Source of the DNA: Commensalibacter melissae
GTDB lineage: Bacteria > Pseudomonadota > Alphaproteobacteria > Acetobacterales > Acetobacteraceae
Direction: 5' to 3'
NCBI RefSeq assembly: GCF_009734185.1
Contig: NZ_CP046393.1
Location: 1,757,501 to 1,821,500 of the forward strand
Length of the DNA: 64,000 nt
Shown: positions 1 to 46,115 of the stretch, in pieces
Layout of the letters: each line of letters opens with the position of its first letter
How positions within the stretch are numbered: the first letter of the stretch is position 1
Notes under the pieces: model-generated
Seen by the model: the letters and a program-made list of their open reading frames with translations, nothing else
Database searches by the model: none
Told to the model about the DNA's origin: nothing
Program-made: the position numbers and the translations under genes

Positions 1-1445
1 ATGCAGGTATTGTTCCCGCCCCAATGCCTCTGCCTGTTGCTTTTGCTGGAAAATCTTCTTATATCAACACCTTGCGGGGAATGATTGAAAACTCTTCCGC
101 AAAAGCGGTTATTATTCCACAAACAATTCAAAGCTGGACGCGGGAAATTATTGAAAAATTTCCTTTATTGTTCGGAGGAAATCCTGCCCAGCTAAAAGAA
201 ATAAAAGTTAATAGCGCCATAGAATTACCAGTTATTCAGGCTGATGATCTTTCTTATCTTCAATTTTCTTCAGGAAGCACTCGCTTTCCTATGGGGGTTG
301 CTGTCACCCAGAAAGCCTGTTTGGCCAATGCTCATGCAATCTCATATTATGGATTGGCAGTAAAAGAAACAGGAGACCGATGCGTTTCATGGTTACCCTT
401 GTATCACGATATGGGGCTGGTTGGATTTTTTCTAACCCCTATGACATGCCAGTTAACCATTGATCTTTTGCCTACCAGGGATTTCGCAAGGCGTCCACAT
501 GTCTGGTTGGATCTGATCAGTCGTAATAAAGGGACCCTATCTTATAGTCCATCTTTTGGGTATGAACTTTGTACACGCCGTATGCCTTCCTCAACCCTGG
601 AACTTGATTTATCCTCTTGGCGTGCGGCAGGTATTGGCGGAGATATGATACGTTCTCATATTTTAAAACAATTTGCCGAACAATATCAAAAATATGGTTT
701 TAATTCAAAAGCTTTTGTCGCAAGCTATGGCATGGCGGAAGCGACATTAGCCCTTTCATTCGCACCTTTGGGAGAGGGACTTAAAACCGATACTATTGAT
801 TTGCCCCTTCTTGAAACGACAGGTATAGCAAAACCTTCCAATGATCCTTGCGTTACAACCAGAACTTTTACTCTTTGTGGTCCGATACTTCCTGATCATG
901 AAATTGAAATACGGGACGAAAATGGAAATATTCTTCCCGAAAGAAGAGCGGGCAGCATTTACGTGCGAGGCCCAAGCCTTATGAAAGGTTATTTCAATAA
1001 AGAAAAAGAAACAGAAGCCGTTCTTGACAAAGAAGGATGGTTAAAAACAGGTGACCTAGGTTATATTTTAAATAACGAAATTGTCATAATTGGACGCGAA
1101 AAAGATTTGATTATCATTAATGGGCGAAATATATGGCCCCAGGATCTGGAATGGGCGGCTGAACATGCTTTTAACTCGCTAAGAAGCCGCGATGTCGCTG
1201 TATTCTCGGTTGATAAGAATAATCAGGAAACTGTCGTTGCACTTGTCCAATGCCGTGCCATTGATGAGTCTGAAAGAAAAAGACTTCAAGAAGATATGAC
1301 CAGTCTGTTTAGAAGACAAAATGGTGTAGAAGTATCTGTCCTGTTAGTCCCTCCACATAGCCTGCCGCAAACCTCCTCTGGAAAATTGACACGGGCAAAA
1401 GCAAGACAAATGCTTTTAAAAGGAGAATTCGGATTTCATTTTTAA
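1..1445 (+). CDS. Fatty acyl-AMP ligase (acyl-ACP synthetase), 5' end cut by window edge
   Basis: Adenylate-forming enzyme that would activate a fatty acid as acyl-AMP and load it on an acyl carrier protein. The reading frame is already open at base 3, before the first ATG at 24, so the N-terminus lies outside the window; about 480 residues are visible. Visible motifs are the P-loop-like FSSGSTRFPMGV, the SYGMAEATLALSF segment typical of FAAL-type enzymes, GDLGYI, the hinge GREKDLIIINGRN, and a C-terminal SSGKLTRAKA with the usual catalytic lysine. The P-loop has Met where many acyl-CoA synthetases have Lys, which is also common in FAALs. It precedes an ACP and a serine palmitoyltransferase-like gene, the same trio (acsR, acpR, spt) known from Caulobacter ceramide synthesis, so the likely partner is the ACP at 1604. 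Confidence 0.88.
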   Translation, partial: AGIVPAPMPLPVAFAGKSSYINTLRGMIENSSAKAVIIPQTIQSWTREIIEKFPLLFGGNPAQLKEIKVNSAIELPVIQADDLSYLQFSSGSTRFPMGVAVTQKACLANAHAISYYGLAVKETGDRCVSWLPLYHDMGLVGFFLTPMTCQLTIDLLPTRDFARRPHVWLDLISRNKGTLSYSPSFGYELCTRRMPSSTLELDLSSWRAAGIGGDMIRSHILKQFAEQYQKYGFNSKAFVASYGMAEATLALSFAPLGEGLKTDTIDLPLLETTGIAKPSNDPCVTTRTFTLCGPILPDHEIEIRDENGNILPERRAGSIYVRGPSLMKGYFNKEKETEAVLDKEGWLKTGDLGYILNNEIVIIGREKDLIIINGRNIWPQDLEWAAEHAFNSLRSRDVAVFSVDKNNQETVVALVQCRAIDESERKRLQEDMTSLFRRQNGVEVSVLLVPPHSLPQTSSGKLTRAKARQMLLKGEFGFHF

Positions 1446-1533
1446 AAATTCAGGTATGAAATGAAATTTTATGGCCTCTTGAACAGAATTTAAAAGCTAT
1501 TTACAATAAATCAATTCTTTCCTTAGGATATGC

Positions 1534-1565
1534 GACTGATTGCGTTAAATGTCATCCAATCAGTC
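1534..1565. promoter_or_regulatory. Inverted repeat between the acyl ligase and ACP genes
   Basis: A perfect 9-bp inverted repeat (GACTGATTG / CAATCAGTC) with a 14-base spacer lies in the 158-bp gap between the ligase stop and the ACP start. No T-run follows on the plus strand, so it is a poor intrinsic terminator. It could be an operator or an RNA hairpin in the ACP leader. The function is unknown. Confidence 0.35.
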
Positions 1566-1603
1566 ATAATCGTTCAAATATTGATATTTAACAAGGTAAC
1601 ACT

Positions 1604-1846
1604 ATGACTGAAACGGTTGAAAAAATTTCAAAAATAATTATTGATACATTATTAGAAAACCCAAAAGTTCCCAAAAACATTTCACCAGACAGCAAAATTA
1701 TTGAAGATTTGGAATTCGATTCTCTAGCTGTCATGAATTTCGTCATGGAAATTGAAGATAAACTAGACGTATCCGTTCCTTTGGATCGCCTGACAGACGT
1801 AAGAACGATTCGTGATCTTGCAGATGCCATCGTTTCCCTTAAATAA
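1604..1846 (+). CDS. Acyl carrier protein (dedicated, sphingolipid-type cluster)
   Basis: An 80-residue acidic protein with the phosphopantetheine attachment motif EFDSL, the modified serine being Ser40. This is the normal ACP length. It is distinct from the housekeeping acpP at 15519, whose motif is GADSL. An AAGG ribosome-binding sequence lies 7 bases upstream of the ATG. It sits between an acyl-AMP ligase and a serine palmitoyltransferase-like gene, and the stop is only 12 bases before the next start. By analogy with Caulobacter AcpR, it probably carries the acyl chain used as the substrate of the downstream condensing enzyme; that role is inferred from context. Confidence 0.9.
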   Translation: MTETVEKISKIIIDTLLENPKVPKNISPDSKIIEDLEFDSLAVMNFVMEIEDKLDVSVPLDRLTDVRTIRDLADAIVSLK

Positions 1847-1858
1847 AAGCCCTCTCCT

Positions 1859-3058
1859 ATGGATATATTTACAAAATTCAAGCCACTTGAAACTGCTTTC
1901 AACCAACTTATTTCCTTTGCCCCGCACAATCCGTTTGGGGTTACAATCGAAAAAACACTTACTGCAACAGTTGGTACTATCAACGGGAAAGAAACACTTC
2001 TTTTTGGAACAAACAATTATCTAGGCCTCAGTCAATCCGAAGAGGCACGAAAAGCAGCTGCTGAAACAGCTATGCAATATGGTGTTGGAACAACGGGATC
2101 CAGAATTGCCAATGGCTCTTATTCCTTACATCAATCACTCGAACAAGAGCTGGCTCAGTTCTTCAACCGTCGTTCCTGCATGGTTTTTTCAACAGGATAT
2201 CAAGCAACCCTCGGCATGGTATCAACTCTTGCCGGTAAGGATGATTACCTTTTCTTGGATGCGGACTGTCATGCCAGTATTTATGATGGCAGCAGACTCA
2301 GTCAGGCACAAATTATACGTTTCCGACACAATGACGCTGACGACTTACGTAAGAGATTACGCCGAGTTGGCAATATAAACGGTATTAAACTGGTTGTTGT
2401 GGAAGGAGTTTACTCCATGTTTGGAGATATCGTTCCCCTCAAAGAATTTATCCAGGTCAAGAAAGAGGAAAATGCTTATCTCATGATTGATGAGGCACAT
2501 TCTTTTGGTGTTTTTGGTGAACATGGTCGAGGAATTGCAGAACGTGAAAACGTGGAACAAGACGTTGACTTCATCGTGGGAACTTTTTCTAAAAGCTTGG
2601 GTACTGTTGGAGGATATTGTGTTTCCGATTATCCACAAATGGATAAATTACGTCTTTGTACCAGACCCTACATGTTTACGGCCTCTTTACCTCCCGAAGT
2701 AATCGCCGCAACACGTGAAAACTTGAAAATCATCGCTAACCGTCCTGAATTGAGAAATAAACTAAAGAATAATGCCTCCCGGTTTTATCATGCATTACAG
2801 AATGCTGGTTTTCAAACTGGTCCAGATATCAGCTCTGTTGTTTCTGTCATCTTGAATGAATTACCTCAGGCTGCTCATTTCTGGAACAGGGTGTTAGAAT
2901 TGGGGGCTTATATTAATCTTAGCCTGCCTCCCGCTACACCAGATAACAGACCTTTATTAAGAGCGAGTATCGCCGCGGCCCATACAGAAGAACAGATTGA
3001 CCGACTAGTTCAAATCTACATTCAGGCGGCTAAAGATGTAGGGCTAACTCTTAATTAA
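1859..3058 (+). CDS. spt: Serine palmitoyltransferase-like alpha-oxoamine synthase
   Basis: PLP-dependent enzyme of the alpha-oxoamine synthase family (399 aa, normal length). Members condense an acyl thioester with an amino acid: serine for sphingolipids (Spt), alanine for biotin (BioF), glycine for heme (HemA) or threonine catabolism (Kbl). Visible motifs are NNYLGL, GVGTTGSR, the DEAHSFG aspartate that binds the PLP ring, and GTFSKSLG with the Schiff-base lysine at Lys245. The neighbouring dedicated ACP and acyl ligase favour serine palmitoyltransferase, the first step to 3-ketosphinganine, in the cytoplasm. BioF is less likely because bioB lies 20 kb away, unlinked. Its start is 12 bases after the ACP stop with only a weak ribosome-binding site, suggesting translational coupling. 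It is convergent with the next gene, 5 bases away. Confidence 0.85.
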   Translation: MDIFTKFKPLETAFNQLISFAPHNPFGVTIEKTLTATVGTINGKETLLFGTNNYLGLSQSEEARKAAAETAMQYGVGTTGSRIANGSYSLHQSLEQELAQFFNRRSCMVFSTGYQATLGMVSTLAGKDDYLFLDADCHASIYDGSRLSQAQIIRFRHNDADDLRKRLRRVGNINGIKLVVVEGVYSMFGDIVPLKEFIQVKKEENAYLMIDEAHSFGVFGEHGRGIAERENVEQDVDFIVGTFSKSLGTVGGYCVSDYPQMDKLRLCTRPYMFTASLPPEVIAATRENLKIIANRPELRNKLKNNASRFYHALQNAGFQTGPDISSVVSVILNELPQAAHFWNRVLELGAYINLSLPPATPDNRPLLRASIAAAHTEEQIDRLVQIYIQAAKDVGLTLN

Positions 3059-3063
3059 AATCT

Positions 3064-4002
3064 TTATCGTTTGAATAAACCCTGTCGATATAATTTGAAT
3101 AATATCCAGGGTGCATTTATAAGGGGATATTTTTTTTGGAACGCTGTCAACTCAAGATTAATGTCACGGTGTCGATTAATTTTCCACACAATATACTGCG
3201 CTCCCCCTTCAAACGTGAAAGCGGCCTTAATTAATCGGCAAATATTCAAGGGTCGACCCAATATTTTCCGAATCTTCCAGCGTTTTCTAGCATATTCTCG
3301 TTGATTCTTTGACACAGATGGCAATAGAGAATAATTTTTTGTCTCGTTATAGGATATTCCTGCTTTTTGCCAGCCCAGTTTTAAAAGTTGCTTAAAGTAA
3401 TCTTCTCTATTTTCCAAAATCAACATTGGACGATTATTTGATTCCACCCTTAGCTCAGCATCATAAGTATGACGGAATAATGAACACCAATATTTTTCCG
3501 CAGTCCCATATTCTGGTCCCAAAAAAGTGGCCCACCATATAGCTGTATTTACTGCTTTTATGAGACAATCCAACAATGCCTGTTTTCCTTTTTCATCCTT
3601 CCACCAAAGAATCTTAACAGGCTGACAAAAACGCGCCCACATCGTTGTATCAATGGATTGTAAAGCAGTAGCTTTTTGAAGTTGATCTATTGATAATATC
3701 GCAACTTTGGCCCTTAAATTAACATTCCCCTCACTCCATTCATGATATTCAATATTCGGAGGTAGACAATAATTAATCACAATTTTAAAACAATCTTCCG
3801 AATACCAATCAGACAAATTTTGACAAACAACATAAAAATCAAGTAAACCTGTCAGTTCTTTTTTCCATAAAGAAGAACCGTAATAGATAACACCTATGGG
3901 TTGCCGATCTCCTATGATCTGTTTAACGAAGGCGGTAACAGATTCTGGAACAGAATGCTGATCAAATGAAGTAGCTAATAATTGTGACAAGGATGATGAC
4001 AT
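3064..4002 (-). CDS. TAM41-like nucleotidyltransferase (putative phosphatidate/lipid-phosphate cytidylyltransferase)
   Basis: 312 aa, no signal peptide or obvious membrane segment. The N-terminal half resembles the TAM41 (Mmp37) family, which makes CDP-diacylglycerol from phosphatidate and CTP on the inner mitochondrial membrane. There is a nucleotidyltransferase-type YGSSL (about residues 41-45) followed by LLDFYVV, LPPNIEY, and a W-A-R-F-CQPVKIL segment matching the TAM41 GRL-QKPVKIL region. It starts 16 bases after the lipid kinase gene (4019-4993) on the same strand, so the two are probably one operon: kinase makes the lipid phosphate, this enzyme activates it. In a sphingolipid cluster the substrate could be ceramide-1-phosphate rather than phosphatidate; that is inference. 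The family call is from remembered motifs, not an alignment. Confidence 0.6.
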   Translation of the reverse strand: MSSSLSQLLATSFDQHSVPESVTAFVKQIIGDRQPIGVIYYGSSLWKKELTGLLDFYVVCQNLSDWYSEDCFKIVINYCLPPNIEYHEWSEGNVNLRAKVAILSIDQLQKATALQSIDTTMWARFCQPVKILWWKDEKGKQALLDCLIKAVNTAIWWATFLGPEYGTAEKYWCSLFRHTYDAELRVESNNRPMLILENREDYFKQLLKLGWQKAGISYNETKNYSLLPSVSKNQREYARKRWKIRKILGRPLNICRLIKAAFTFEGGAQYIVWKINRHRDINLELTAFQKKYPLINAPWILFKLYRQGLFKR

Positions 4003-4018
4003 AAACAGCCGACATTAT

Positions 4019-4993
4019 CTATAAACGGACAAACGAAAATTTGGGACCGGTCGAAAGAAGGATACAATGATCCTCGCCTGTATCAAATTGTTCTCCATCA
4101 AGAATAATATCCTCTTTGATTGACAGTTTTATTTTATTGGCGGTACCACTAAGATAATTAGGATCATTCAATAACCATTCCGGCGTTTTACCTCTTAATA
4201 AGGCGAAACATGCCGCCAACAGATGTGGAGGACGTGCTTTAACATTCAAATAATGAAGACTATCATCCCCTGCATATCGGTTAAAAAACGGCCACATTCC
4301 ATGAGATAGGCTCTGTAAAGTCGTCGATAAAAACAAAAAGCAATTCTCCTGATATGATTTCTTTTCATCAATGAAAAAAGAGCATACATTACCGTTAAGC
4401 CACAAATCCCGTGTTTTTGAAAAAAATAATTTTAGTAAAGACGTTATAATAGTGATTGCCACAGCACCATCATGAGGAAAATTTTTTAAAATCGTCGGGT
4501 TGTGTGCAATCTGAATAGCCTTCGTAAATGCCGCTGCACCTTGAAACATTCCCAAAACAGGCGGGCGAGAGGGATCAGACCATTCAATTTTTAATGCATG
4601 ACGATGCTGAACCGTAAAATGCAATCGCTGACGTTCTGCCAAAGTCCTGATACGCTTAAGAGCATTGATTCCCCGAATACCGAATCCAATATCCTTGGCT
4701 ATTAAATTTGTATTTCCTGAAGGAAGAATAATAAGGCTTGGCAATTTATCATGTGGATAACAGCTATAAATAGCTGTCATGACATGACTAATCGTGCCAT
4801 CCCCACCATCTATAATGATACAATCGACCCCTGTTGCGACAAAACGATTTAACGTTTGCATCATATCATCAACAGTTCGTGGCGTAGAATAATTTTCTCC
4901 TAACCAGTTCAAGGCAAAATCTGTAAATTCCTTATCCTCTTTCTGATTTAATCGACTGACAGGATTTTTAATTAAGGCAATATTCTGATTCAC
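4019..4993 (-). CDS. Diacylglycerol kinase-family lipid kinase
   Basis: 324 aa with a DAGK/sphingosine-kinase catalytic domain: the N-terminal KNPVSR, the nucleotide-binding IDGGDGTISHV (GGDGT at residues 63-67), and LPSGNTNLIA. The C-terminal part (INDEPD-like IILDGEQFD region) fits the second beta-sandwich domain of the family. It phosphorylates a lipid hydroxyl, with ATP as the usual donor. The start codon is GTG at 4993 with AGAAG upstream. It precedes the TAM41-like gene and faces away from the metallophosphoesterase gene. In this sphingolipid context it may act on ceramide or a sphingoid base, as CpgB does in Caulobacter; diacylglycerol or another lipid cannot be excluded. Confidence 0.8.
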   Translation of the reverse strand: MNQNIALIKNPVSRLNQKEDKEFTDFALNWLGENYSTPRTVDDMMQTLNRFVATGVDCIIIDGGDGTISHVMTAIYSCYPHDKLPSLIILPSGNTNLIAKDIGFGIRGINALKRIRTLAERQRLHFTVQHRHALKIEWSDPSRPPVLGMFQGAAAFTKAIQIAHNPTILKNFPHDGAVAITIITSLLKLFFSKTRDLWLNGNVCSFFIDEKKSYQENCFLFLSTTLQSLSHGMWPFFNRYAGDDSLHYLNVKARPPHLLAACFALLRGKTPEWLLNDPNYLSGTANKIKLSIKEDIILDGEQFDTGEDHCILLSTGPKFSFVRL

Positions 4994-5188
4994 GGATTGC
5001 TTCTAACATTCTATAGTATCTTGTTTTAATTTAATATGAGGAGTAATAAACGTTTTTATAGTTTTGATGTTATCATTCCTTCCCATTTGCTTCTTTTATG
5101 AAAAAAATTGTGCAAAAATCAACTATATTATCATGATTTCAAGTGTGTTACATAACATAGCATAGAATATATTTAAGGATAGTCTCTT

Positions 5189-6076
5189 TTGAAACGCTTT
5201 ACAATTGCCCATATTTCGGACATTCATCTTCCCTTGGAAAGCATTCAATTTCCGAAATTATCCCTTGTCAATAAACGATTTTTAAGTTTTCTGTCCTGGA
5301 AAAAAAGACGCCTTTCTTTGCAAAAAAAGAGACTTGATATCATCATTGACGATATTTCCAGAGAATCTCCCGATCTTTTGTTGATATCGGGAGATCTTAC
5401 CAACTTGGCTCTGCCTGAGGAATTTAAACAGGCAGCTGACTGGTTGCATCATCTTCCTTTTAAAAATATAAATATTATCCCAGGGAATCATGATGCGCTT
5501 GTTAAAACACAATGGCACAATAGCTACGCTTTTTGGTCACCCTGGTCACAGGCTTACAATCATGACGATTACCCTATCATAACCCGTTATGGTTCTATCG
5601 CTGTCATTGGCATTAATACAGCCGTTCCCACGCCTCCCTTTTTTGCAAATGGCCAGGTTGGAAATTATCAGCTGAATCAAATAAGATATGCACTCCAACG
5701 ACTTAAAAAAGATAATTTATTCAGGATTGTGATTTTGCACCATCCCCCTGTATCAGGAATTGTTTCGGAAAGAAAGGCCTTAAAAGACAGGAAAAAATTG
5801 CAAAAAATATTATATGAAGAGGGTGTCGAAATTATTCTTTTTGGGCATGTCCATCGTACCATTACCCGAAAATTTCTTGACACCAATATACCGATGCTGG
5901 GAATTGCTTCGGCCTCTTCCAATTCAAGCCGTCCGTATCACCAAGCCGCTTGGCGTAAAATCGTAATTGAAAAATTGGATGATCACTTTCATACATTTTC
6001 AACGGTACGCTTTATAGACAAAAATGGTGATTTTTCTCAAACCCACTCCTTTTATATAGATCACTATTTTCAGTAA
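5189..6076 (+). CDS. Metallophosphoesterase
   Basis: 295-residue calcineurin-like phosphoesterase with all five metal-site blocks: HISDIH near the N-terminus, ISGDLTN, IPGNHD, LHHPP and FGHVHR. It would hydrolyse a phosphomonoester or phosphodiester using two metal ions, without signal peptide, so probably in the cytoplasm. The start is TTG, chosen because AAGGA lies 9 bases upstream and the DIH motif begins only ten residues later. It is the first gene of a compact rightward block (phosphoesterase, LptF, LptG, hydroxylase, nucleotidyltransferase). The substrate is unknown; a phosphorylated lipid intermediate is plausible from context (inference). Confidence 0.85.
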   Translation: MKRFTIAHISDIHLPLESIQFPKLSLVNKRFLSFLSWKKRRLSLQKKRLDIIIDDISRESPDLLLISGDLTNLALPEEFKQAADWLHHLPFKNINIIPGNHDALVKTQWHNSYAFWSPWSQAYNHDDYPIITRYGSIAVIGINTAVPTPPFFANGQVGNYQLNQIRYALQRLKKDNLFRIVILHHPPVSGIVSERKALKDRKKLQKILYEEGVEIILFGHVHRTITRKFLDTNIPMLGIASASSNSSRPYHQAAWRKIVIEKLDDHFHTFSTVRFIDKNGDFSQTHSFYIDHYFQ

Positions 6077-6143
6077 GTCCTTGTTGAAATTTCATTTAAA
6101 AAATCAGAGTTTAACCAGATTTTTATCAACGATCCACATCAAG

Positions 6144-7301
6144 ATGTTGGATTCCTACCTTTTTGCGCAAGCTCTACCAAGTTTTATTATTTCTCTTGGA
6201 GTTATCCTTGCCGCCTTGATGCTGGAAAGATTGCTTGTTTTACTTGACCTATTAGCGGCAGACAGCAGCCCCCTAAGTACTTTTCTTGGCTTACTGGCTG
6301 ATCTGATCCCTCATTATCTTGGTCTTGCCATTCCGGCAGCCTTTTGCGTATCAATTTTTTCAAGTATTCGTCAGTTAAATCTTAATAATGAAATTGATGC
6401 ATTATTAAATGCTGGAAAATCCCTTTTTCAATGTACACGGTCTTACATCATAAGTGGTATTGCCGTCAGTTTTTTTTGTATAATATTATATGGTTATATT
6501 CAGCCATATGCCCGATATGATTTTCGCGCAGCTTTTTTTTATGCCTCCCATGCTGGATGGGCACCCCATATTCAAAGCCATATGATTGTTCAACCCAATA
6601 ACCACACTGTTATGATCGTTGACAAAGCTAGCCAAAATGGAACCCAGCTTTCAGGAATCTTCATAAGACAAACAAAATTAAATGATAAAAAACAACTGGT
6701 TGAACAAATTATTCTGGCAGATAAAGGGAATTTTTATTCACTGGCCGATCATTCAAAAATAATACTGACCCTTTATGATGGTCAAAATCTTACATTAAAT
6801 CCAAATAACAACAATAATATAACAGATTTTTCCAATGCTTCACGAATAATACAAAACACAAACAAGAAAAACATTTTTAGGGAAAGAGGCAGCGATGAAC
6901 GCGAACTAACCCTGACAAATCTCTACGAACAAATTCAGCACCATACCTATCAAGACATTCCAATTTTAGATATAAAGGCTGAATTTCATTTTCGTTTAGT
7001 CCGCGCCTTATCAATTATTGCCATTCCTTTTCTTGCTGTTGCCTTAGCCATTACACCAAAACGTCGTAAAAGAAATTTAGGTCTTGGAATCGCGGCAATC
7101 ATTCTTGTTGCCTATGATCATATTCAACAACTGGGTTTAACCCTTGTTTCACACGGACATGACAATGCGTTTGTCGCTTTATGGCTACCATTTTTTATAT
7201 TCTTGTTTTTTTGCTTTGGCTGTCTATTCTTAAAAAACAATCCCTTTCTCTTTACCTCTCGCAATTTGTTAAGACACTTTTCAAAGTCTTCGGATAAATA
7301 A
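6144..7301 (+). CDS. lptF: LptF-type permease of a lipid/LPS export ABC transporter
   Basis: About 385 aa, with N- and C-terminal groups of hydrophobic segments flanking a soluble middle domain, the LptF/LptG (YjgP/YjgQ) architecture. In the Lpt system LptF and LptG form the inner-membrane channel that, with LptB, extracts LPS and feeds it to the LptC/A bridge. I chose the ATG at 6144 because MLDSYLFAQAL aligns with the usual start just before the first helix; an in-frame TTG at 6081, 4 bases after the phosphoesterase stop, would add 21 residues and neither has a clear Shine-Dalgarno sequence. The coupling region reads NNEIDALLNAG, less canonical than in the next gene. Its place beside sphingolipid genes makes a dedicated sphingolipid exporter possible. 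Confidence 0.8.
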   Translation: MLDSYLFAQALPSFIISLGVILAALMLERLLVLLDLLAADSSPLSTFLGLLADLIPHYLGLAIPAAFCVSIFSSIRQLNLNNEIDALLNAGKSLFQCTRSYIISGIAVSFFCIILYGYIQPYARYDFRAAFFYASHAGWAPHIQSHMIVQPNNHTVMIVDKASQNGTQLSGIFIRQTKLNDKKQLVEQIILADKGNFYSLADHSKIILTLYDGQNLTLNPNNNNNITDFSNASRIIQNTNKKNIFRERGSDERELTLTNLYEQIQHHTYQDIPILDIKAEFHFRLVRALSIIAIPFLAVALAITPKRRKRNLGLGIAAIILVAYDHIQQLGLTLVSHGHDNAFVALWLPFFIFLFFCFGCLFLKNNPFLFTSRNLLRHFSKSSDK

Positions 7302-8398
7302 TGAAAAAATTATTGAAACGTTATGTGTTAACCTTTTATTTATCCAGTCGCTTGTTAGCAACGACTTTTACTACTGTCATTATTTTAACAGCAATCATGG
7401 AGGTTTTAACCCTATTGGAACAAACCTCTACCATTTTGGAACGACAACTTGGGCTAAAAGGGGTTGTTCATTTCATGATGCTGAAATTACCTTTACTTTT
7501 TAATTCTGTTTTACCCTTAAGTACCCTTATCGGTTTCTTGATCGCCCTCACTCAATTGACAATCAACAATGAAATAACCATTCTACGATCCATAGGCTTA
7601 TCGACATGGGGACTGATAAAAAAATTAATACCTGTTACGCTATTGCTAAGTTTTCTATGTTTTATTATGTCTGACCAAATTACACCCAAAACGGAACTGG
7701 ATCTGGCAACATGGTGGAACAAAACCAACCCGCATCCCGAAAAAGAAAATAATTTCTATTTTTACAGCAATCTTGATATCATCAATATTGATCATATTGC
7801 CTATGGAGGAAATAAAATTACAGGGCTAACGATTATCAAGCGTCGTGATTTATCTCATATTGACTCGGTGCTTATTGCTGATGAAGTCATTCACAAAAAT
7901 CACCAATGGATTTTCTCTCATGCAAAATTCCTGCAAAACAAACCGGATATTCCATTAAAATTTCATGAATTAACAAATGAAAAAGAAAGAATATGGAATA
8001 TTAACCTGACACCACATACCCTTATAAGACTATCTTCAAAATCAATGCCACAATCCATCCATAATATGGTTCTAGAATTATCATATCAACAACCTTTCAA
8101 AATGCCTACGAATTATATAAAAACAACAATTTGGGGAAGATTGTGTTTACCCTTTACTTTTATCATGATGCTAATTATTACTGTACTTGTAACCTACATC
8201 CCGCCACGTGCTGGGTTACGTAGCTGGATCCCCATCTATTGTTTGGGATATGGATTGTTATTTATTATATTCCAAGAAGTCCTGCATGCTTTGGGGAAAG
8301 CAGGAACCATACCCGCCCCAGTGGCTTCACTTTCTGCCTTCCTTGTCTTTATGTTAGCTACATGCACTATCATTCTATCAGTTGAAGAAAAACAATGA
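7301..8398 (+). CDS. lptG: LptG-type permease of a lipid/LPS export ABC transporter
   Basis: 365 aa, same six-helix plus periplasmic-domain architecture as the preceding gene, with the coupling-region NNEITILRSIGLS that is close to the canonical LptFG pattern. LptG pairs with LptF as the second transmembrane half. The start overlaps the lptF stop by one base (TAATG) and its own stop overlaps the next start (ATGA), so all three are translationally coupled. No LptB, LptC or LptA is encoded in the window. It may be the genome's only LptG or a second copy serving another lipid; the sequence alone does not decide this. Confidence 0.82.
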   Translation: MKKLLKRYVLTFYLSSRLLATTFTTVIILTAIMEVLTLLEQTSTILERQLGLKGVVHFMMLKLPLLFNSVLPLSTLIGFLIALTQLTINNEITILRSIGLSTWGLIKKLIPVTLLLSFLCFIMSDQITPKTELDLATWWNKTNPHPEKENNFYFYSNLDIINIDHIAYGGNKITGLTIIKRRDLSHIDSVLIADEVIHKNHQWIFSHAKFLQNKPDIPLKFHELTNEKERIWNINLTPHTLIRLSSKSMPQSIHNMVLELSYQQPFKMPTNYIKTTIWGRLCLPFTFIMMLIITVLVTYIPPRAGLRSWIPIYCLGYGLLFIIFQEVLHALGKAGTIPAPVASLSAFLVFMLATCTIILSVEEKQ

Positions 8399-9219
8399 GC
8401 AACCAATCTATCTTTCAAATTATGCGCAATCAAGACCTACGTTCCGGACGTAGTTACGATTTAGGTAAAATGGGACTAAAACAATTATGGGTGGCCTATT
8501 TGACGCATCCAACCATCCTATTATATTTCAGCCTTATTATTGGATGTATTGTCGCCGTCTGCTACACGTTCAATGGATGGGTTCCTGTTTTAAGTTCAAT
8601 TATCGTCATGATATTTGGTTTTCCATTAATCTGGTATATTATCCATCGCTGGATCATGCATGTTTCGTTACTATACAGAATGAAATGGTCGGCTTCACTA
8701 TGGAAACGCATTCACTTTGATCATCATCAGGATCCCCATCTTTTAAATGTATTATTTGGATCACCCTTGAATACCATACCAACCATCATTATCATTGGGG
8801 GCGGCTTGGGATATTTAGTTGGTGGATTTTGCGGTTTCTTTGCCTCTATTGGTACAGCTGTGTACATGTCATGTTTTTATGAATTTTTTCATTGCATTCA
8901 ACATTTAAATTATAAACCAAAATCAAGGTATGTAAGTCATATTAAACAGGTTCATGTTTTACACCACTTTCATTATGAAAAGGGAAACTTTGGTATTACC
9001 AACTATTTTTGGGATAAAATCTTCGGTACCTATTATGAAGATGCCAAGGCACGCCCACGGAGCCCAACTGTATTTAACATGGGATATACTGTGAAAGAAG
9101 CTGAACATTATCCTTGGGTTATGCTAAAAACCGGGGCTCCTCCACGTGATCGTCCCGCAGGATCTAATTTTCGGGAGCATAAAAAAGATTGCACCCAACA
9201 CACTCAAAAAGCAGCCTAA
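8395..9219 (+). CDS. Fatty acid hydroxylase / sterol desaturase superfamily membrane enzyme
   Basis: 274 aa with several membrane helices and the di-iron histidine clusters of this superfamily in order: HRWIMH, HFDHH, HCIQH and HVLHHFHY. Such enzymes use O2 to hydroxylate or desaturate lipid chains at the membrane. Eukaryotic relatives include sphinganine C4-hydroxylase (Sur2) and ceramide fatty-acid 2-hydroxylase (Scs7). Its start overlaps the lptG stop in an ATGA, so it is co-translated with the permeases. With serine palmitoyltransferase nearby, hydroxylation of the long-chain base or of the ceramide acyl chain is the likely role; hydroxylated sphingolipids are known from acetic acid bacteria. 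The regiochemistry is not predictable from sequence. Confidence 0.8.
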   Translation: MSNQSIFQIMRNQDLRSGRSYDLGKMGLKQLWVAYLTHPTILLYFSLIIGCIVAVCYTFNGWVPVLSSIIVMIFGFPLIWYIIHRWIMHVSLLYRMKWSASLWKRIHFDHHQDPHLLNVLFGSPLNTIPTIIIIGGGLGYLVGGFCGFFASIGTAVYMSCFYEFFHCIQHLNYKPKSRYVSHIKQVHVLHHFHYEKGNFGITNYFWDKIFGTYYEDAKARPRSPTVFNMGYTVKEAEHYPWVMLKTGAPPRDRPAGSNFREHKKDCTQHTQKAA

Positions 9220-9236
9220 AAGGAATTGGGGCCATT

Positions 9237-10010
9237 ATGGAACGTGAACCCATCAATGCTTTAATTCTGGCCGGGTCAAGGCAAGGGAAACAAGATCCTT
9301 TGGCTTTGCATGCTCACGTTTCGCACAAGGCGATTATTCCCGTATTGGGAAAACCAATGATCGAATATGTTACCGAAACCCTTGCAAAAATAGAATCCAT
9401 TAATAAAATTGCTGTTTCAATTGAAAAGTTCGAGGTTGTTAGGGATATTCTACCCAACTTTATTAAGTATCTTCCCACCTGTCCTGGTCCAAGTGCAAGC
9501 ATCATCCAAGCCATTCAAGCATTGGGAACCCCCCTATTAATAACAACCGCTGATAACCCCTTACTTCAATCGGAATGGGTGGAATATTTCATACAGGAAG
9601 CGGAGGCCTCACAATGTGACCTTGCTGTTGGTATCGCGCTAAAGGAACAGATTGAAAAAGATGTTCCAAACACAAAAAGAACTTACATCAAATTGGCTGA
9701 CGGTTCTTTTTCTGGTTGCAATATTTTTATGTTTCGAACACCAAGGTCCATTCAAGTTGCAAAACTTTGGCAAAAATTGGAAAGTTATCGCAAAAATCCA
9801 CTAAAAATGGGCTTGCTATTGGGATATTCGATAATCTTGCGATATATCCTGCATCGCTTGACTAGAAAAGCACTTAAAAAAAGAATTTTCAAATTAACCA
9901 AGGTTAAGATCCATTTTGTAATTATACCCTGGGGGCAGGCTGCCGTGGATGTGGATAAACCTGATGATCTCCACTTGGTTAATAATTTGATGTCTAACCG
10001 ATCAAATTAA
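9237..10010 (+). CDS. MobA-like NTP transferase domain protein
   Basis: 257 aa from the ATG at 9237, preferred over an upstream start at 9189 because AAAGGAATTGGGG lies just before it and the Rossmann-like N-terminus begins at once (NALILAGS). Visible features are the N-terminal LILAG nucleotide-binding loop, a K-A-I-I-P-V-L-GKPMIEYV segment typical of sugar-1-phosphate or cofactor nucleotidyltransferases, and TTADNPLL, equivalent to the metal-binding D-x-P/D motif. It would transfer a nucleotide from NTP to a phosphorylated acceptor. As the last gene of the phosphoesterase-LptFG-hydroxylase block it may activate a polar headgroup. Caulobacter uses a nucleotidyltransferase (CpgD) for a ceramide headgroup, but whether this is an orthologue is not known. 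The C-terminal third is lysine-rich and hydrophobic. Confidence 0.65.
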   Translation: MEREPINALILAGSRQGKQDPLALHAHVSHKAIIPVLGKPMIEYVTETLAKIESINKIAVSIEKFEVVRDILPNFIKYLPTCPGPSASIIQAIQALGTPLLITTADNPLLQSEWVEYFIQEAEASQCDLAVGIALKEQIEKDVPNTKRTYIKLADGSFSGCNIFMFRTPRSIQVAKLWQKLESYRKNPLKMGLLLGYSIILRYILHRLTRKALKKRIFKLTKVKIHFVIIPWGQAAVDVDKPDDLHLVNNLMSNRSN

Positions 10011-10070
10011 ATCAATTCTTACACATTTCATTGGTTTAAAATCAAAAAATCAATAAATATTCCAAGCTTT

Positions 10071-10961
10071 TTAAAATGTTCCATGTATTTGATATCGCCT
10101 GTCAATCAAGAAACGCCTCACAGGCTGTCTAAGTATTTTTTTGCCATCTATCAGACTATAGGGGCCAGCCTTACTTAATGTATGCACCCCTTGATTATAT
10201 TCGCCAAATATTGAACCTTTATTGAACTGACCTGTAATTCTTGCTTCAAATTGATCAGGGGTTAATTCAATAATGTTTAAAAATGTTAGTCCCCCTCCAT
10301 ACGTCAGGCTACAATCCTGTGTCGGTAAAATAATACCCTGAGATGTAATGACTGCATTACCACCAGGACGTGCACTTGAGGGGGAAATCCTTACGGGATT
10401 AAGTGAATGAGAATGCCATGTTCCTGCGAGACTTTCCGACCAGGCAACAGATAAAACGCTTTGCCGACTTAACCCTTCCCTTACAGGAGTATAAAACATC
10501 CACCATAAATCATTATAAAATAATACAGTCGGATCAATGGCCACTTCAGGAAAAGAAAAAGAGGATACCTTCTCCCAATGAAATGGAAACTCAACTGCTT
10601 TATATAAACTGGTTTCACCTGATTTGTATGCCTCTGGCAGCATGTAAACCAACCCCTGATCCTCAATTAACATTGGATAGGATAGATGCCAGGGTTTCTC
10701 CAATACAATTTTTCGATCAATAAGTGAAAGCTGTTGATCAAGAATTAATACCTCTATACGGCCATGACGATCTCTGTAATCATATGCTTCCGCAAAAACA
10801 TATAGTTTATTATCTCTATAGAGGCCAAAAGGATCAGCAAGAAATTTGAACGTATCCTCCTCTTTTATCCAATGAATATCGCAAATATCACAAGCTATCA
10901 CATCCTCAACCGGTGCCTTGACAATACCAATGCGCCATATATCCGTTTCAAAAATCGACAT
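10071..10961 (-). CDS. GINT1 N-terminal-like beta-propeller protein
   Basis: 296 aa, rich in aromatic strands, resembling the five-bladed propeller domain (glucosamine inositolphosphorylceramide transferase 1, N-terminal) found alone or fused to formyltransferase or glycosyltransferase domains in bacteria. Typical features are FLADPF, YVFAEAYDY, SYPMLIEDQG, YMLPEA, IDPTVLFYNDLWWMFYT and ARPGGNAV. No catalytic function is established for the isolated domain; it may bind glycans. It is 13 bases downstream of the monooxygenase gene, same strand, so co-transcribed, and convergent with the nucleotidyltransferase. Its presence in a sphingolipid region is striking because plant GINT1 glycosylates a sphingolipid. 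Family assignment is from recalled motifs. Confidence 0.6.
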   Translation of the reverse strand: MSIFETDIWRIGIVKAPVEDVIACDICDIHWIKEEDTFKFLADPFGLYRDNKLYVFAEAYDYRDRHGRIEVLILDQQLSLIDRKIVLEKPWHLSYPMLIEDQGLVYMLPEAYKSGETSLYKAVEFPFHWEKVSSFSFPEVAIDPTVLFYNDLWWMFYTPVREGLSRQSVLSVAWSESLAGTWHSHSLNPVRISPSSARPGGNAVITSQGIILPTQDCSLTYGGGLTFLNIIELTPDQFEARITGQFNKGSIFGEYNQGVHTLSKAGPYSLIDGKKILRQPVRRFLIDRRYQIHGTF

Positions 10962-10974
10962 CAGAAATACAAAT

Positions 10975-11271
10975 TTATTTTGCGGGTATTAAATTCAGTA
11001 ATTCAAGGGGCTTCACAGCAAAAGGTTTTACCACGCGCATCAGATTCTGGAAATGTTCCGTTTCGCAATGCGCATCCAAAGCCTGTTGATTTGCCCAACA
11101 TTCAATAAAAACAATTTTATTAGGCTTGTCACTTTGAAAATAGGCTGTATAGCTATGATTTCCTTTTTCCTCTCTTGAACGAGAAACACACACATTCACA
11201 GCATCTGAAATTTTTGACCAGGCCCCTTCATCAATTTCCAGTATAGCAACCAAATTAACTTCCTGAGACAT
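10975..11271 (-). CDS. Antibiotic biosynthesis monooxygenase (ABM) domain protein
   Basis: 98 aa, a single ABM/quinol-monooxygenase ferredoxin-like fold: N-terminal NLVAILEID, a central SYTAYFQSD strand, the family-typical FIECWANQQALDAH and a closing HFQNLM. Related proteins (YgiN) oxidise quinols or small aromatics without cofactor, in the cytoplasm. It is first in a two-gene leftward unit with the beta-propeller gene and divergent from the inositol-monophosphatase-family gene across 166 bp of AT-rich DNA. The substrate is not predictable; the link to lipid genes may be coincidental. Confidence 0.8.
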   Translation of the reverse strand: MSQEVNLVAILEIDEGAWSKISDAVNVCVSRSREEKGNHSYTAYFQSDKPNKIVFIECWANQQALDAHCETEHFQNLMRVVKPFAVKPLELLNLIPAK

Positions 11272-11437
11272 AATTCGTTCCTTATTTTTTAAATAAAAAT
11301 AATACGTTTCATCTTTATCAAATTTTTATCTTAAAATAGTAAACAATCTGATTCTATAAAAAATTAAATATTTCTGATAAAATTCACTATAATCATATGA
11401 TTTAAATTCATTCAATCATTTAAGGTTAAGACCAATT

Positions 11438-12226
11438 ATGAGTGACGCACTTTCACGTCGTTTTATAGCTGCACAAGAAATTGTCAAAAATGCATCTGAA
11501 ATTGCCTTACAAATGCGGCCCAGTCCAGGGGGACCCCAAGGATCCCTTAAACATGCCCAAGACTGGTTGACCGAAACAGATGGCAAGATCGAAACCTATA
11601 TTTCAAAAGCAATTCAATCCCTCTTTCCCGAAGATGGTTTTCAAGGAGAGGAAAAGGGGAAAACACGTTCAGGGTCGTTAAGATGGATTGTCGACCCTAT
11701 CGATGGAACATCAAACTATGCACGTGGCAGAAATCGGTGGTGTATTTCTCTTGGACTTATGGAAGAAAATGTTCCCACTCTCGGTATTATTGCAGCTCCA
11801 TGCGTAAACGAATTCTATACTGCCCGTCTAGGAAAAGGGGCATTCATGAATGAAAAGCCCATTCATGTTTCCGATGTTAAAGATCCAAAAATATCCATGA
11901 TTGAACTGGGCTGGAGTCACGTCAGTAAAATCGATGAATTTCTAAAAAATGCAGAAGCTATCTTAAAAACTGGCGCAATGATTCGCACTTTGGGTTCAGG
12001 CACCATGTCCCTCGTCGATGTTGCGAGCGGTAGACTGGATGGACATTTTGAAATGGCCATTAATTTATGGGATGTGGCGGCAGCACTCGTTTTACTTAGA
12101 GAAGCTGGTGCCTGTATTTCACCTTTCTTGGAAAATGGTGGCCTTCATCAAATGACACCTATTTTAACCGCAGCTCCAGGAATTTCGGATATCCTCTCGA
12201 AAACACTTCATATGTCCTTATCATAA
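11438..12226 (+). CDS. Inositol monophosphatase family protein
   Basis: 262 aa, normal length for the family. Both metal-binding signatures are present: WIVDPIDGTSNYARG (motif A region with the DPIDGT aspartates) and the C-terminal WDVAAALVLLREAGA. An acidic EEKGKT precedes the first motif and corresponds to the conserved Glu-Glu pair. These Mg-dependent, Li-sensitive enzymes remove phosphate from inositol-1-phosphate, histidinol phosphate, fructose-1,6-bisphosphate or PAP. No his genes are adjacent. Given the lipid cluster, dephosphorylation of a headgroup precursor or sugar phosphate is possible (inference). The start ATG follows TTAAGG by about 10 bases. Confidence 0.85.
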   Translation: MSDALSRRFIAAQEIVKNASEIALQMRPSPGGPQGSLKHAQDWLTETDGKIETYISKAIQSLFPEDGFQGEEKGKTRSGSLRWIVDPIDGTSNYARGRNRWCISLGLMEENVPTLGIIAAPCVNEFYTARLGKGAFMNEKPIHVSDVKDPKISMIELGWSHVSKIDEFLKNAEAILKTGAMIRTLGSGTMSLVDVASGRLDGHFEMAINLWDVAAALVLLREAGACISPFLENGGLHQMTPILTAAPGISDILSKTLHMSLS

Positions 12227-44966: not shown

Positions 44967-45959
44967 TTATTGTTTAAGATATCCTTGCTTCCAAAACCAT
45001 AACAGGGAATCTTTCAAGGCCTCTTTTGCAGGCCTGAATGTATAACCGAGTTCCCTTTCTGCCTTGGCAGAAGAGAAAAACATTTTTTTATAAGACATCA
45101 TCAGCATTTCACGCGTAACCCGTGGCTCTATATTAAATGTACGAGCCAACCACTCCGAAATAATAGCTGCCGGCCACAAAACCTTCTGATTAAGTCTTAT
45201 TAAGGGAGGTTTTACACCAGCAATTTCAGCGACAATTGAAAAGAGTTCCCGTAATAACATATTTTCACCACCTAAAATATATTTTTCACCAATACGTCCC
45301 TTTTCCAAAGCCAACCGATGCCCATTGGCAACATCATCAACATGCACAATATTCAAGCCTGTATCAACATAAGCGGGCATTTTTCCAGAGGCACAGTCCA
45401 AAATCATTTTTCCCGTAGGAGTGGGTTTTATATCGCCAGGACCAATGGGGGTAGAGGGATTAACAATCACCGCCGGCAATTTTTTGTTTTTTACAAGCTC
45501 CAACACAGCCTGTTCAGCCTGATATTTGGACTGTTTATAAGCACCAATTATATGATGAACAGGTGTTGTTTCATCAGCAACACTGCCGTCCCCAACCAAT
45601 CCAAGGGCTGCCACAGAAGAACAGTAAACAATTTTTTCAATGCCGGCTTCCATTGCGGCCAGCATCAGCTGACGTGTGCCTTCGACATTAATATACATCA
45701 TTCTGTTAGGATCCGGTACCCATAACCGATAATCAGCTGCCACATGAAAAAGATATCGACACCCTTGCAACGCATCGGCAAAACTTGTGGGATTAGCCAG
45801 ATCCCCCTCGACCAATTCAGCCTCCAATCCATGCACATTTTGACGATTACTATTCGCCCGAACCAATAATTTAAGTTGATGTCCATGGGCAATTAAATTG
45901 CGGGCTACGGCAGAACCTACAAAGCCTGTTGCTCCTGTCACAAACGTTGGTGCGACCAT
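44967..45959 (-). CDS. hpnA: Hopanoid-associated sugar epimerase HpnA
   Basis: 330 aa from the ATG at 45959, chosen because GAGG lies 5 bases upstream and the protein then begins MVAPTFVTGATGFVG; a TTG 14 codons and ATGs 5-6 codons upstream are possible but have no ribosome-binding site. Extended SDR with the NAD loop TGATGFVG, VHHIIGAYKQSKYQAE with the YxxxK pair, and VNPSTPIGPGDIKPTPTG. First gene of the leftward hpn operon, divergent from hpnL. Confidence 0.93.
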   Translation of the reverse strand: MVAPTFVTGATGFVGSAVARNLIAHGHQLKLLVRANSNRQNVHGLEAELVEGDLANPTSFADALQGCRYLFHVAADYRLWVPDPNRMMYINVEGTRQLMLAAMEAGIEKIVYCSSVAALGLVGDGSVADETTPVHHIIGAYKQSKYQAEQAVLELVKNKKLPAVIVNPSTPIGPGDIKPTPTGKMILDCASGKMPAYVDTGLNIVHVDDVANGHRLALEKGRIGEKYILGGENMLLRELFSIVAEIAGVKPPLIRLNQKVLWPAAIISEWLARTFNIEPRVTREMLMMSYKKMFFSSAKAERELGYTFRPAKEALKDSLLWFWKQGYLKQ

Positions 45960-46115
45960 CTCGACCTCATTCATCATGTTTATATTTTTTAAGTTTTGCA
46001 AATCAATAACTAAGATACGTAGGAACGTGTATTGTAATTAGCTCTATTTCTAACTAGTATGCAAATAATTTAATAATATAAAATAACTTTCTAATAAAAT
46101 AACATACGGTTTGTT

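Follow-up and report, generated by a model that had tools for sequence, protein, structure and literature searches.

A sphingolipid gene cluster in Commensalibacter melissae raises the question of which enzyme reduces the 3-keto group of the sphingoid base when the reductase CerR is not seen beside the other genes of the pathway. The cluster lies at the left end of a stretch of 64,000 nucleotides (contig NZ_CP046393.1, positions 1,757,501 to 1,821,500 of the forward strand), the whole of which was analysed and is called the window here. Judged from its genes, the block from 1 to 10010 is a variant of the phosphosphingolipid cluster published for Caulobacter, with functions for synthesis, decoration and export. 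In Caulobacter, according to PMC11087976, serine palmitoyltransferase (SPT) and the ceramide synthase bCerS are cytoplasmic and CerR is periplasmic; whether reduction precedes or follows acylation is a matter of dispute, and it is unknown where CerR obtains its electrons. The answer that we consider probable is that in the lineage of the window a cytoplasmic classical short-chain dehydrogenase/reductase (SDR) would carry out the reduction in place of periplasmic CerR, and that the product of the cluster would be an outer-membrane phosphosphingolipid. The cluster type is already known; the new part is the proposed substitution, which is suggested by the comparisons described below. No account of an SDR replacing CerR in acetic acid bacteria was found, judging by titles and the openings of abstracts, with the subscription literature mostly outside this scope, so that this is weak evidence of novelty.

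The SDR was found beside the candidate gene for bCerS. The bCerS family was defined by synteny, from members in the sphingolipid clusters of relatives, many of which stand next to the hydroxylase or nucleotidyltransferase gene. The Pfam family PF04339 had been considered for this role, gave no match in the genome of the window and was set aside in favour of the synteny-derived family. The resulting profile has one match per genome in all 26 genomes tried; in the genome of the window (G000) its sole match, of 315 bits, lies at G000:1010222-1011364, approximately 746 kb from the cluster, and not just left of the window, where the sequence-only reading had supposed that the gene might be. The GNAT family PF00583 is matched at E<=0.1 by 15 of the 20 aligned members; the copy of this genome matched no Pfam family. 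Among 120 Acetobacteraceae genomes, 38 have an SPT match at 1e-60 (at class level, 49 of 385 have one at 1e-75); all 36 family genomes in which SPT reaches at least 400 bits also have a bCerS match of at least 440 bits, as do three further genomes. By position and GNAT type, the bCerS of the Caulobacter-type ceramide pathway is thus represented in the genome.

A classical SDR gene adjoins the bCerS gene and is divergent from it in 31 of the 34 bCerS loci examined (20, then 14 more, two of them from the species of the window). Two of the remaining three, L303 and L312, have CerR beside bCerS, and the genome of the third, L304, has CerR in its SPT locus. The pair of the present genome is likewise divergent, at approximately 1.009-1.011 Mb, with the SDR gene on the minus strand at approximately 1009273-1010103. 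Genes resembling glucokinase, ThiL, NusB and NrdR (named by eye) are the outer neighbours in 14 to 15 of the first 20 loci, though not in the genus of the window. Across the 39 family genomes with a strong bCerS match, 30 have the SDR, eight have CerR, and one, G021, has neither in the fetched stretch. A wider set of 107 bCerS loci (105 distinct sequences) gave, per stretch examined, 31 with the SDR, 50 with CerR, 26 with neither and none with both; the Acetobacteraceae share of these is 31, 6 and 3, respectively. Of the three with neither, L065 belongs to G021, and in the genomes of L304 and L059 CerR lies beyond the stretch. A bCerS tree was labelled for 81 distinct sequences, with L304 and L059 set to CerR by hand; a single label change explains it, whereas none of 200 shuffles needed fewer than 20. 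All 31 SDR-type sequences fall into a single clade (support 1.0), and the eight CerR-type Acetobacteraceae all lie outside it.

The SDRs beside bCerS form a distinct family. Their profile gives at least 305 bits for the 31 members, with the 13 that are outside the model scoring 305-417; the next SDR reaches 179.6 and the FabG of the window 117.7. Scans of the window, of the 51 SPT loci and of 80 named loci gave no match of 200 bits. The tetrad N132, S161, Y174 and K178 is identical in 18 of 18 aligned sequences, and the threonine of TGxxxGxG is present in the 14 rows that reach this position (four begin later); the TGxxxGxG motif and the N-S-Y-K tetrad are those expected of a KDSR-like classical SDR. 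An arginine after strand beta-2, a mark of NADPH use in SDRs, is found in all 17 rows that reach the position. No export signal was detected, as judged by eye only, and therefore reduction in the cytoplasm would be expected. Apart from this family, L065 (G021) carries a different classical SDR of 179.6 bits at approximately 15.3-16.1 kb (+), near genes for a fatty acyl-AMP ligase (FAAL), an acyl carrier protein (ACP) and SPT.

These data could also be explained by an ordinary Caulobacter-type cluster, in which an unrecognised enzyme of the epimerase family (GOX1849 type), or a CerR encoded in the left flank, reduces the keto group, while the SDR does something else. PMC9386255 gives GOX1849 as the Gluconobacter homologue, and epimerase-family matches are present in all 26 genomes tested. 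However, only two genomes have a high best match to the CerR profile (342 and 415 bits), the other 24 staying below 141 bits, and the lower matches fall outside the CerR clade and form other clades (3 of the 23 frames extracted for this tree, from L149, L150 and L168, look like wrong-frame picks). The best match of the present genome, at 44967-46001 (-) of the window, is HpnA, a hopanoid-associated sugar epimerase (TIGR03466, 479.5 bits versus a cut-off of 368); the organism probably makes hopanoids too. By profile, no orthologue of CerR, the extended SDR of the Caulobacter-type ceramide pathway, was found in this genome, searched except for a left-flank stretch, nor in 23 other genomes; the expectation that CerR would lie just left of the window was therefore not borne out in the part searched. 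CerR is likewise absent by profile from the 18 loci that have the full gene order described below, several of which have a left flank that is incomplete or ends with the contig, and the exclusion of CerR and SDR from each other's stretches in the 107 loci also argues against this explanation, which appears unlikely.

The substitution by the SDR is consistent with the arrangement in three genomes, G056, G010 and G105, that have a strong bCerS match and no strong SPT match. In their loci (L300, L301 and L302) a divergent oxoamine synthase gene, whose product is 32-33% identical to the SPT of the window, lies directly beside the SDR and bCerS genes; such a trio is the pattern expected of a keto reductase of the pathway. 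In G056, genes for the kinase, the TAM41-like protein, the phosphoesterase and LptF/LptG are also near the trio. In the SPT tree, the oxoamine synthases of the trios group apart from the ACP-linked SPTs, and the SPTs of acetic acid bacteria group with the latter, next to the SPT of the CerR-type genome of L056; the root of this tree is untrustworthy, given that the outgroup row from L002 resembles a BioA-type neighbour frame and not an oxoamine synthase. In the bCerS tree, G010 and G105 are deepest in the SDR clade, followed by G056 with G001. From these topologies we tentatively suggest, as a possibility short of a probability, that acetic acid bacteria run a hybrid pathway, in which an ACP-dependent SPT of the Caulobacter lineage would work with a bCerS/SDR half derived from a different lineage, whose trio would still be intact in G056, G010 and G105. 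The SDR would then be a cytoplasmic NADPH enzyme acting possibly before N-acylation, as in eukaryotes, and bacteria would have two alternative reductases, unlike in type and compartment and perhaps in step order. Another pairing of an oxoamine synthase with bCerS was observed in G075:C261 2060-4278, where a weak SPT match (36% identity) is followed, after approximately 35 bases, by a weaker bCerS match of 292 bits.

The genes of the window cluster and its right-hand neighbours, all of which the sequence-only reading had placed within 1-12226 except the monooxygenase that it left unnamed, were recovered from the list of open reading frames and domain models:

24-1445 (+): fatty acyl-AMP ligase (FAAL; AasR/AcsR type), 5' end beyond the window edge; NF006624, 709 bits versus cut-off 600; PF00501
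1604-1846 (+): dedicated ACP (AcpR type), adjoining SPT; PF00550, E 4.4e-12
1859-3058 (+): SPT; NF047599, 603.5 bits versus cut-off 500
3064-4002 (-): TAM41-like putative cytidylyltransferase, in CpgC-like position; relatives match PF09139, pattern YGS...D.Y kept
4019-4993 (-): lipid kinase of the diacylglycerol kinase (DAGK) type, candidate ceramide kinase in CpgB-like position; PF00781, E 9.8e-11
5189-6076 (+): calcineurin-like phosphoesterase, immediately 5' of lptF; PF00149, E 7.2e-18
6081-7301 (+): LptF-like permease (LptF2, second copy); PF03739, 192 bits
7301-8398 (+): LptG-like permease (LptG2, second copy); PF03739, 185 bits
8395-9219 (+): FA_hydroxylase, SCS7-like di-iron fatty-acid/ceramide hydroxylase; PF04116, 73 bits
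9237-10010 (+): MobA-like nucleotidyltransferase, candidate synthase of a cytidine diphosphate (CDP)-headgroup with CpgD-like role; PF12804, E 6.5e-13 on the longer frame 9189-10010
10071-10961 (-): beta-propeller of the GINT1_N type, uncertain member; PF24793, 115.6 bits versus cut-off 27
10975-11271 (-): ABM-domain monooxygenase, beside the propeller
11438-12226 (+): inositol monophosphatase-like protein (IMPase); best model HisN, 127 bits versus cut-off 275

The FAAL match begins at position 99 of the 567 of NF006624, the protein being cut at the window edge, and the start of the MobA-like gene was placed at 9237 from the alignment. From FAAL through IMPase the intergenic gaps are, in order, 158, 12, 5, 16, 195, 4, -1, -4, 17, 60, 13 and 166 bases; past IMPase come a Ysc84 protein (+) and then MltG/YceG and FabF (both -). 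Genes in relatives were called with a script made for this analysis, not taken from annotation. Several alignments were built on subsets: A1 with 13 of 14 bCerS candidates; A2 with 19 of 28 members of the CerR-containing cluster (paralogues and near-duplicates omitted); A3 with the window and 29 of 32; A5 with the window and 27 of 29; A7 with 18 of 19; and A8 with 20 (15 of 20 from the family and 5 of 14 others); A4, A6 and A10 were complete.

The first three genes had been read as the Caulobacter acsR-acpR-spt trio, and their adjacency, together with an SPT above its curated cut-off, agrees with this and with the rhodobacterial ACP-dependent SPT module. The possibility that the oxoamine synthase uses alanine or glycine instead of serine had been raised as a danger to that reading. 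The protein passes the SPT equivalog NF047599 alone, and it is below the cut-offs of BioF (332.9 versus 426), glycine C-acetyltransferase (KBL; 310.5 versus 460) and 5-aminolevulinate synthase (233.6 versus 339), which, as far as sequence goes, points to serine. The pyridoxal phosphate lysine and four further columns, which we take to be active-site residues with the corresponding roles, are identical in all 51 locus SPTs.

SPT neighbourhoods were compared in 31 Acetobacteraceae and 20 class-level loci. The order of ten genes, that is FAAL, ACP and SPT, then the TAM41-like and kinase genes on the minus strand, then phosphoesterase, LptF, LptG, hydroxylase and MobA-like, was found whole in 18 family loci out of 31 and in none of the 20 class-level loci; given its recurrence, the arrangement is not due to chance. 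Partial orders in other loci keep pairs, with the TAM41-like gene beside the kinase gene and the phosphoesterase gene 5' of LptF-LptG. The proposal that the whole region makes a modified sphingolipid of this kind thus is supported for the block 1-10010 and unsupported beyond it: the ABM gene adjoins the propeller gene in two further loci only, L035 and L036 (2 of 31 family loci), and has no evident link to the cluster, and the membership of IMPase and the GINT1_N propeller is undecided.

Regarding decoration, the DAGK-type kinase gene adjoins the TAM41-like gene, which is comparable to a CDP-diacylglycerol synthase gene, as in CPG/CPG2 clusters. The TAM41-like protein of the window itself has no Pfam match at E<=0.001, nor at E<=1; two of 30 aligned relatives match PF09139 (Tam41_Mmp37; best E 9.8e-7), and the pattern YGS...D.Y is conserved in the alignment. 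Relatives of this protein appear, among the matches listed, in records titled Nitrospirales, Marinimicrobia and Desulfurellaceae (L199, L200, L260 and L270); the gene may reach beyond Alphaproteobacteria, or the bins may be mixed. The phosphoesterase gene has an equivalent place in several class-level clusters. Another LptF/LptG pair is encoded at G000:1467531-1469756, and the pair of the window is therefore a second copy, again as in CPG/CPG2 clusters. In the hydroxylase, ten histidines of the histidine clusters are invariant and one more is kept in at least 90% of 28 sequences; its profile, compared with solved structures, had matches below E 0.1 to yeast SCS7 only (4zr1; 1.3e-9 and 3.6e-9), so that it carries the membrane di-iron histidine clusters of SCS7/FA2H. 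The MobA-like profile matches TTHA0179 (2dpw) at 6.4e-38. A TagF-like gene (Glyphos_transf), found 5' of FAAL in relatives, was considered as a headgroup transferase; it is present in 20 of 32 genomes and was not found in G000 (part of the left flank being outside the search), G276 or G040, and no such role is claimed for it.

A second explanation concerns the headgroup, which would be inositol or a sugar if the MobA-like protein were an inositol-1-phosphate cytidylyltransferase, IMPase supplied inositol, and the GINT1_N propeller and the family 4 glycosyltransferase (GT4) of relatives added sugar. According to PMC12275187, the closest structure to CpgD, which is of the same broad nucleotidyltransferase type, is an inositol-phosphate cytidylyltransferase, and an inositolphosphorylceramide name is attached to PF24793. 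IMPase comes next to the cluster in 15 of the 18 full loci but in no locus among the other 33; its best model is HisN, below the cut-off, and L039 and L058 lack it although they keep Ysc84, MltG and FabF after the cluster. Among 120 family genomes, 37 have PF24793, more often when SPT-positive (26 of 36) than otherwise (11 of 84), as do 22 of 385 class genomes, yet the propeller is inside the cluster in only 10 of 31 family loci, and several genomes carry PF24793 at a distance from their SPT locus or on a separate contig. The domain scan of the propeller (296 residues) gave GINT1_N plus a sub-threshold GH43 match and no GT64 catalytic domain; with this, and the lack of linkage to SPT in several genomes, GINT1_N was rejected as proof of an inositol sphingolipid. 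In G040, of the same genus, a GT4 gene is found between the MobA-like gene and gint. On balance, an inositol or sugar headgroup is distinctly improbable. A GT4 gene was observed at that place in L035, of the same genus, and is present there in approximately ten relatives; the window has none. Most doubtful is a degraded or free-ceramide pathway that makes mainly ceramide and keeps vestigial decoration genes, for which Acetobacter malorum, given as a ceramide producer in PMC10626005, and the L058 (G116) locus, without phosphoesterase, LptF and LptG, could be cited; against it, the window has intact frames for the kinase, the TAM41-like protein and the MobA-like protein, and these are kept with conserved columns in the 18 full loci.

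Several points weigh against a reductase switch that feeds an outer-membrane phosphosphingolipid. Adjacency to bCerS is no proof that the SDR acts on a keto-sphingoid. All the SDR loci belong to one family, so the shuffles overstate the case for a single switch, and a fairer control is given by the eight Acetobacteraceae genomes with CerR, in which the search for the SDR covered the fetched stretches. G021 has neither CerR nor the bCerS-linked SDR in its fetched locus (L065), and for the genome of the window alone a CerR may lie in the unsearched left-flank stretch. The bCerS is a candidate, identified by GNAT family, cluster position and co-occurrence, not by alignment to the Caulobacter sequence, and weaker matches to it (220-292 bits) occur in 10 of 120 genomes, nine of which have no match to SPT at 1e-60. 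Two of the three oxoamine synthases beside the SDR were scanned, those of G056 and G010; neither reaches a curated cut-off for SPT, BioF or KBL, and the specificity of the synthases is unassigned. Finally, the headgroup route is incomplete as far as gene content goes: a CDP-alcohol phosphatidyltransferase (CpgA) was not found among the scanned genes of the window nor called in the 18 full loci, the remaining genome not being searched; CpgA-like enzymes do occur in class-level clusters.

With the SDR as the reductase, the pathway could proceed as follows. FAAL would load a fatty acid onto the dedicated ACP, and SPT, by homology to the step shown in Caulobacter, would condense the acyl chain with serine to give 3-ketosphinganine. 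The remotely encoded SDR, the new element, would stand in for CerR and reduce the 3-keto group in the cytoplasm with NADPH, and the bCerS candidate would add the second acyl chain, the ceramide acyl chain being perhaps hydroxylated by the SCS7-like enzyme. By analogy with CpgB the kinase would make ceramide-1-phosphate, and the TAM41-like and MobA-like putative cytidylyltransferases, like CpgC and CpgD, may activate the lipid phosphate and the headgroup phosphate; the dedicated LptF2/LptG2 would then move the lipid toward the outer membrane.

Among known systems the closest is the region CC_1168-CC_1152 of Caulobacter crescentus, for which PMC11324152 reports the order and mutants of aasR, acpR, spt, the ceramide kinase CpgB, the CDP-diacylglycerol-synthase-like CpgC, LptF2/LptG2, a phosphoesterase and nucleotidyltransferases. 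Both clusters share aasR-acpR-spt, the ceramide kinase, CpgC, LptF2/LptG2, a nucleotidyltransferase and the phosphoesterase; this orthology is drawn from the gene order in the literature and from family membership instead of alignment, and no Caulobacter is among the best 80 matches listed. In contrast with that region as described there, no cerR, bCerS or CDP-alcohol transferase gene is seen in the window cluster, an SCS7-like hydroxylase gene lies inside it, and the SDR and bCerS pair is elsewhere. The product of CpgD is CDP-glycerate, and the enzyme is similar to an inositol-phosphate cytidylyltransferase (PMC12275187). In Gluconobacter oxydans the same trio is GOX2058/GOX2057/GOX2056, with the acyl-CoA N-acyltransferase homologue GOX2417 apart from it; PMC9386255 names the epimerase GOX1849 as the reductase, whereas the present data favour the SDR beside bCerS (the GOX sequences were not compared). 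If true, the swap would revise the reductase named for acetic acid bacteria, and a lineage in which CerR has seemingly been replaced by a classical SDR would be a natural comparison for the disputed question of reduction before or after acylation. The window also provides a case of an SCS7-like hydroxylase encoded among sphingolipid genes, and it lends support to export through a dedicated LptF2/LptG2; with the yeast ceramide 2-hydroxylase SCS7/FA2H (4zr1) the hydroxylase shares the FA_hydroxylase family and the histidine clusters, but it has the hydroxylase part only. KDSR/Tsc10 are members of the SDR family, and these 3-ketosphinganine reductases and that of Bacteroides, BT_0972, resemble the present SDR, by description only, as non-CerR reductases in a sphingolipid pathway; the present SDR differs from them in being linked to a GNAT-type bCerS.

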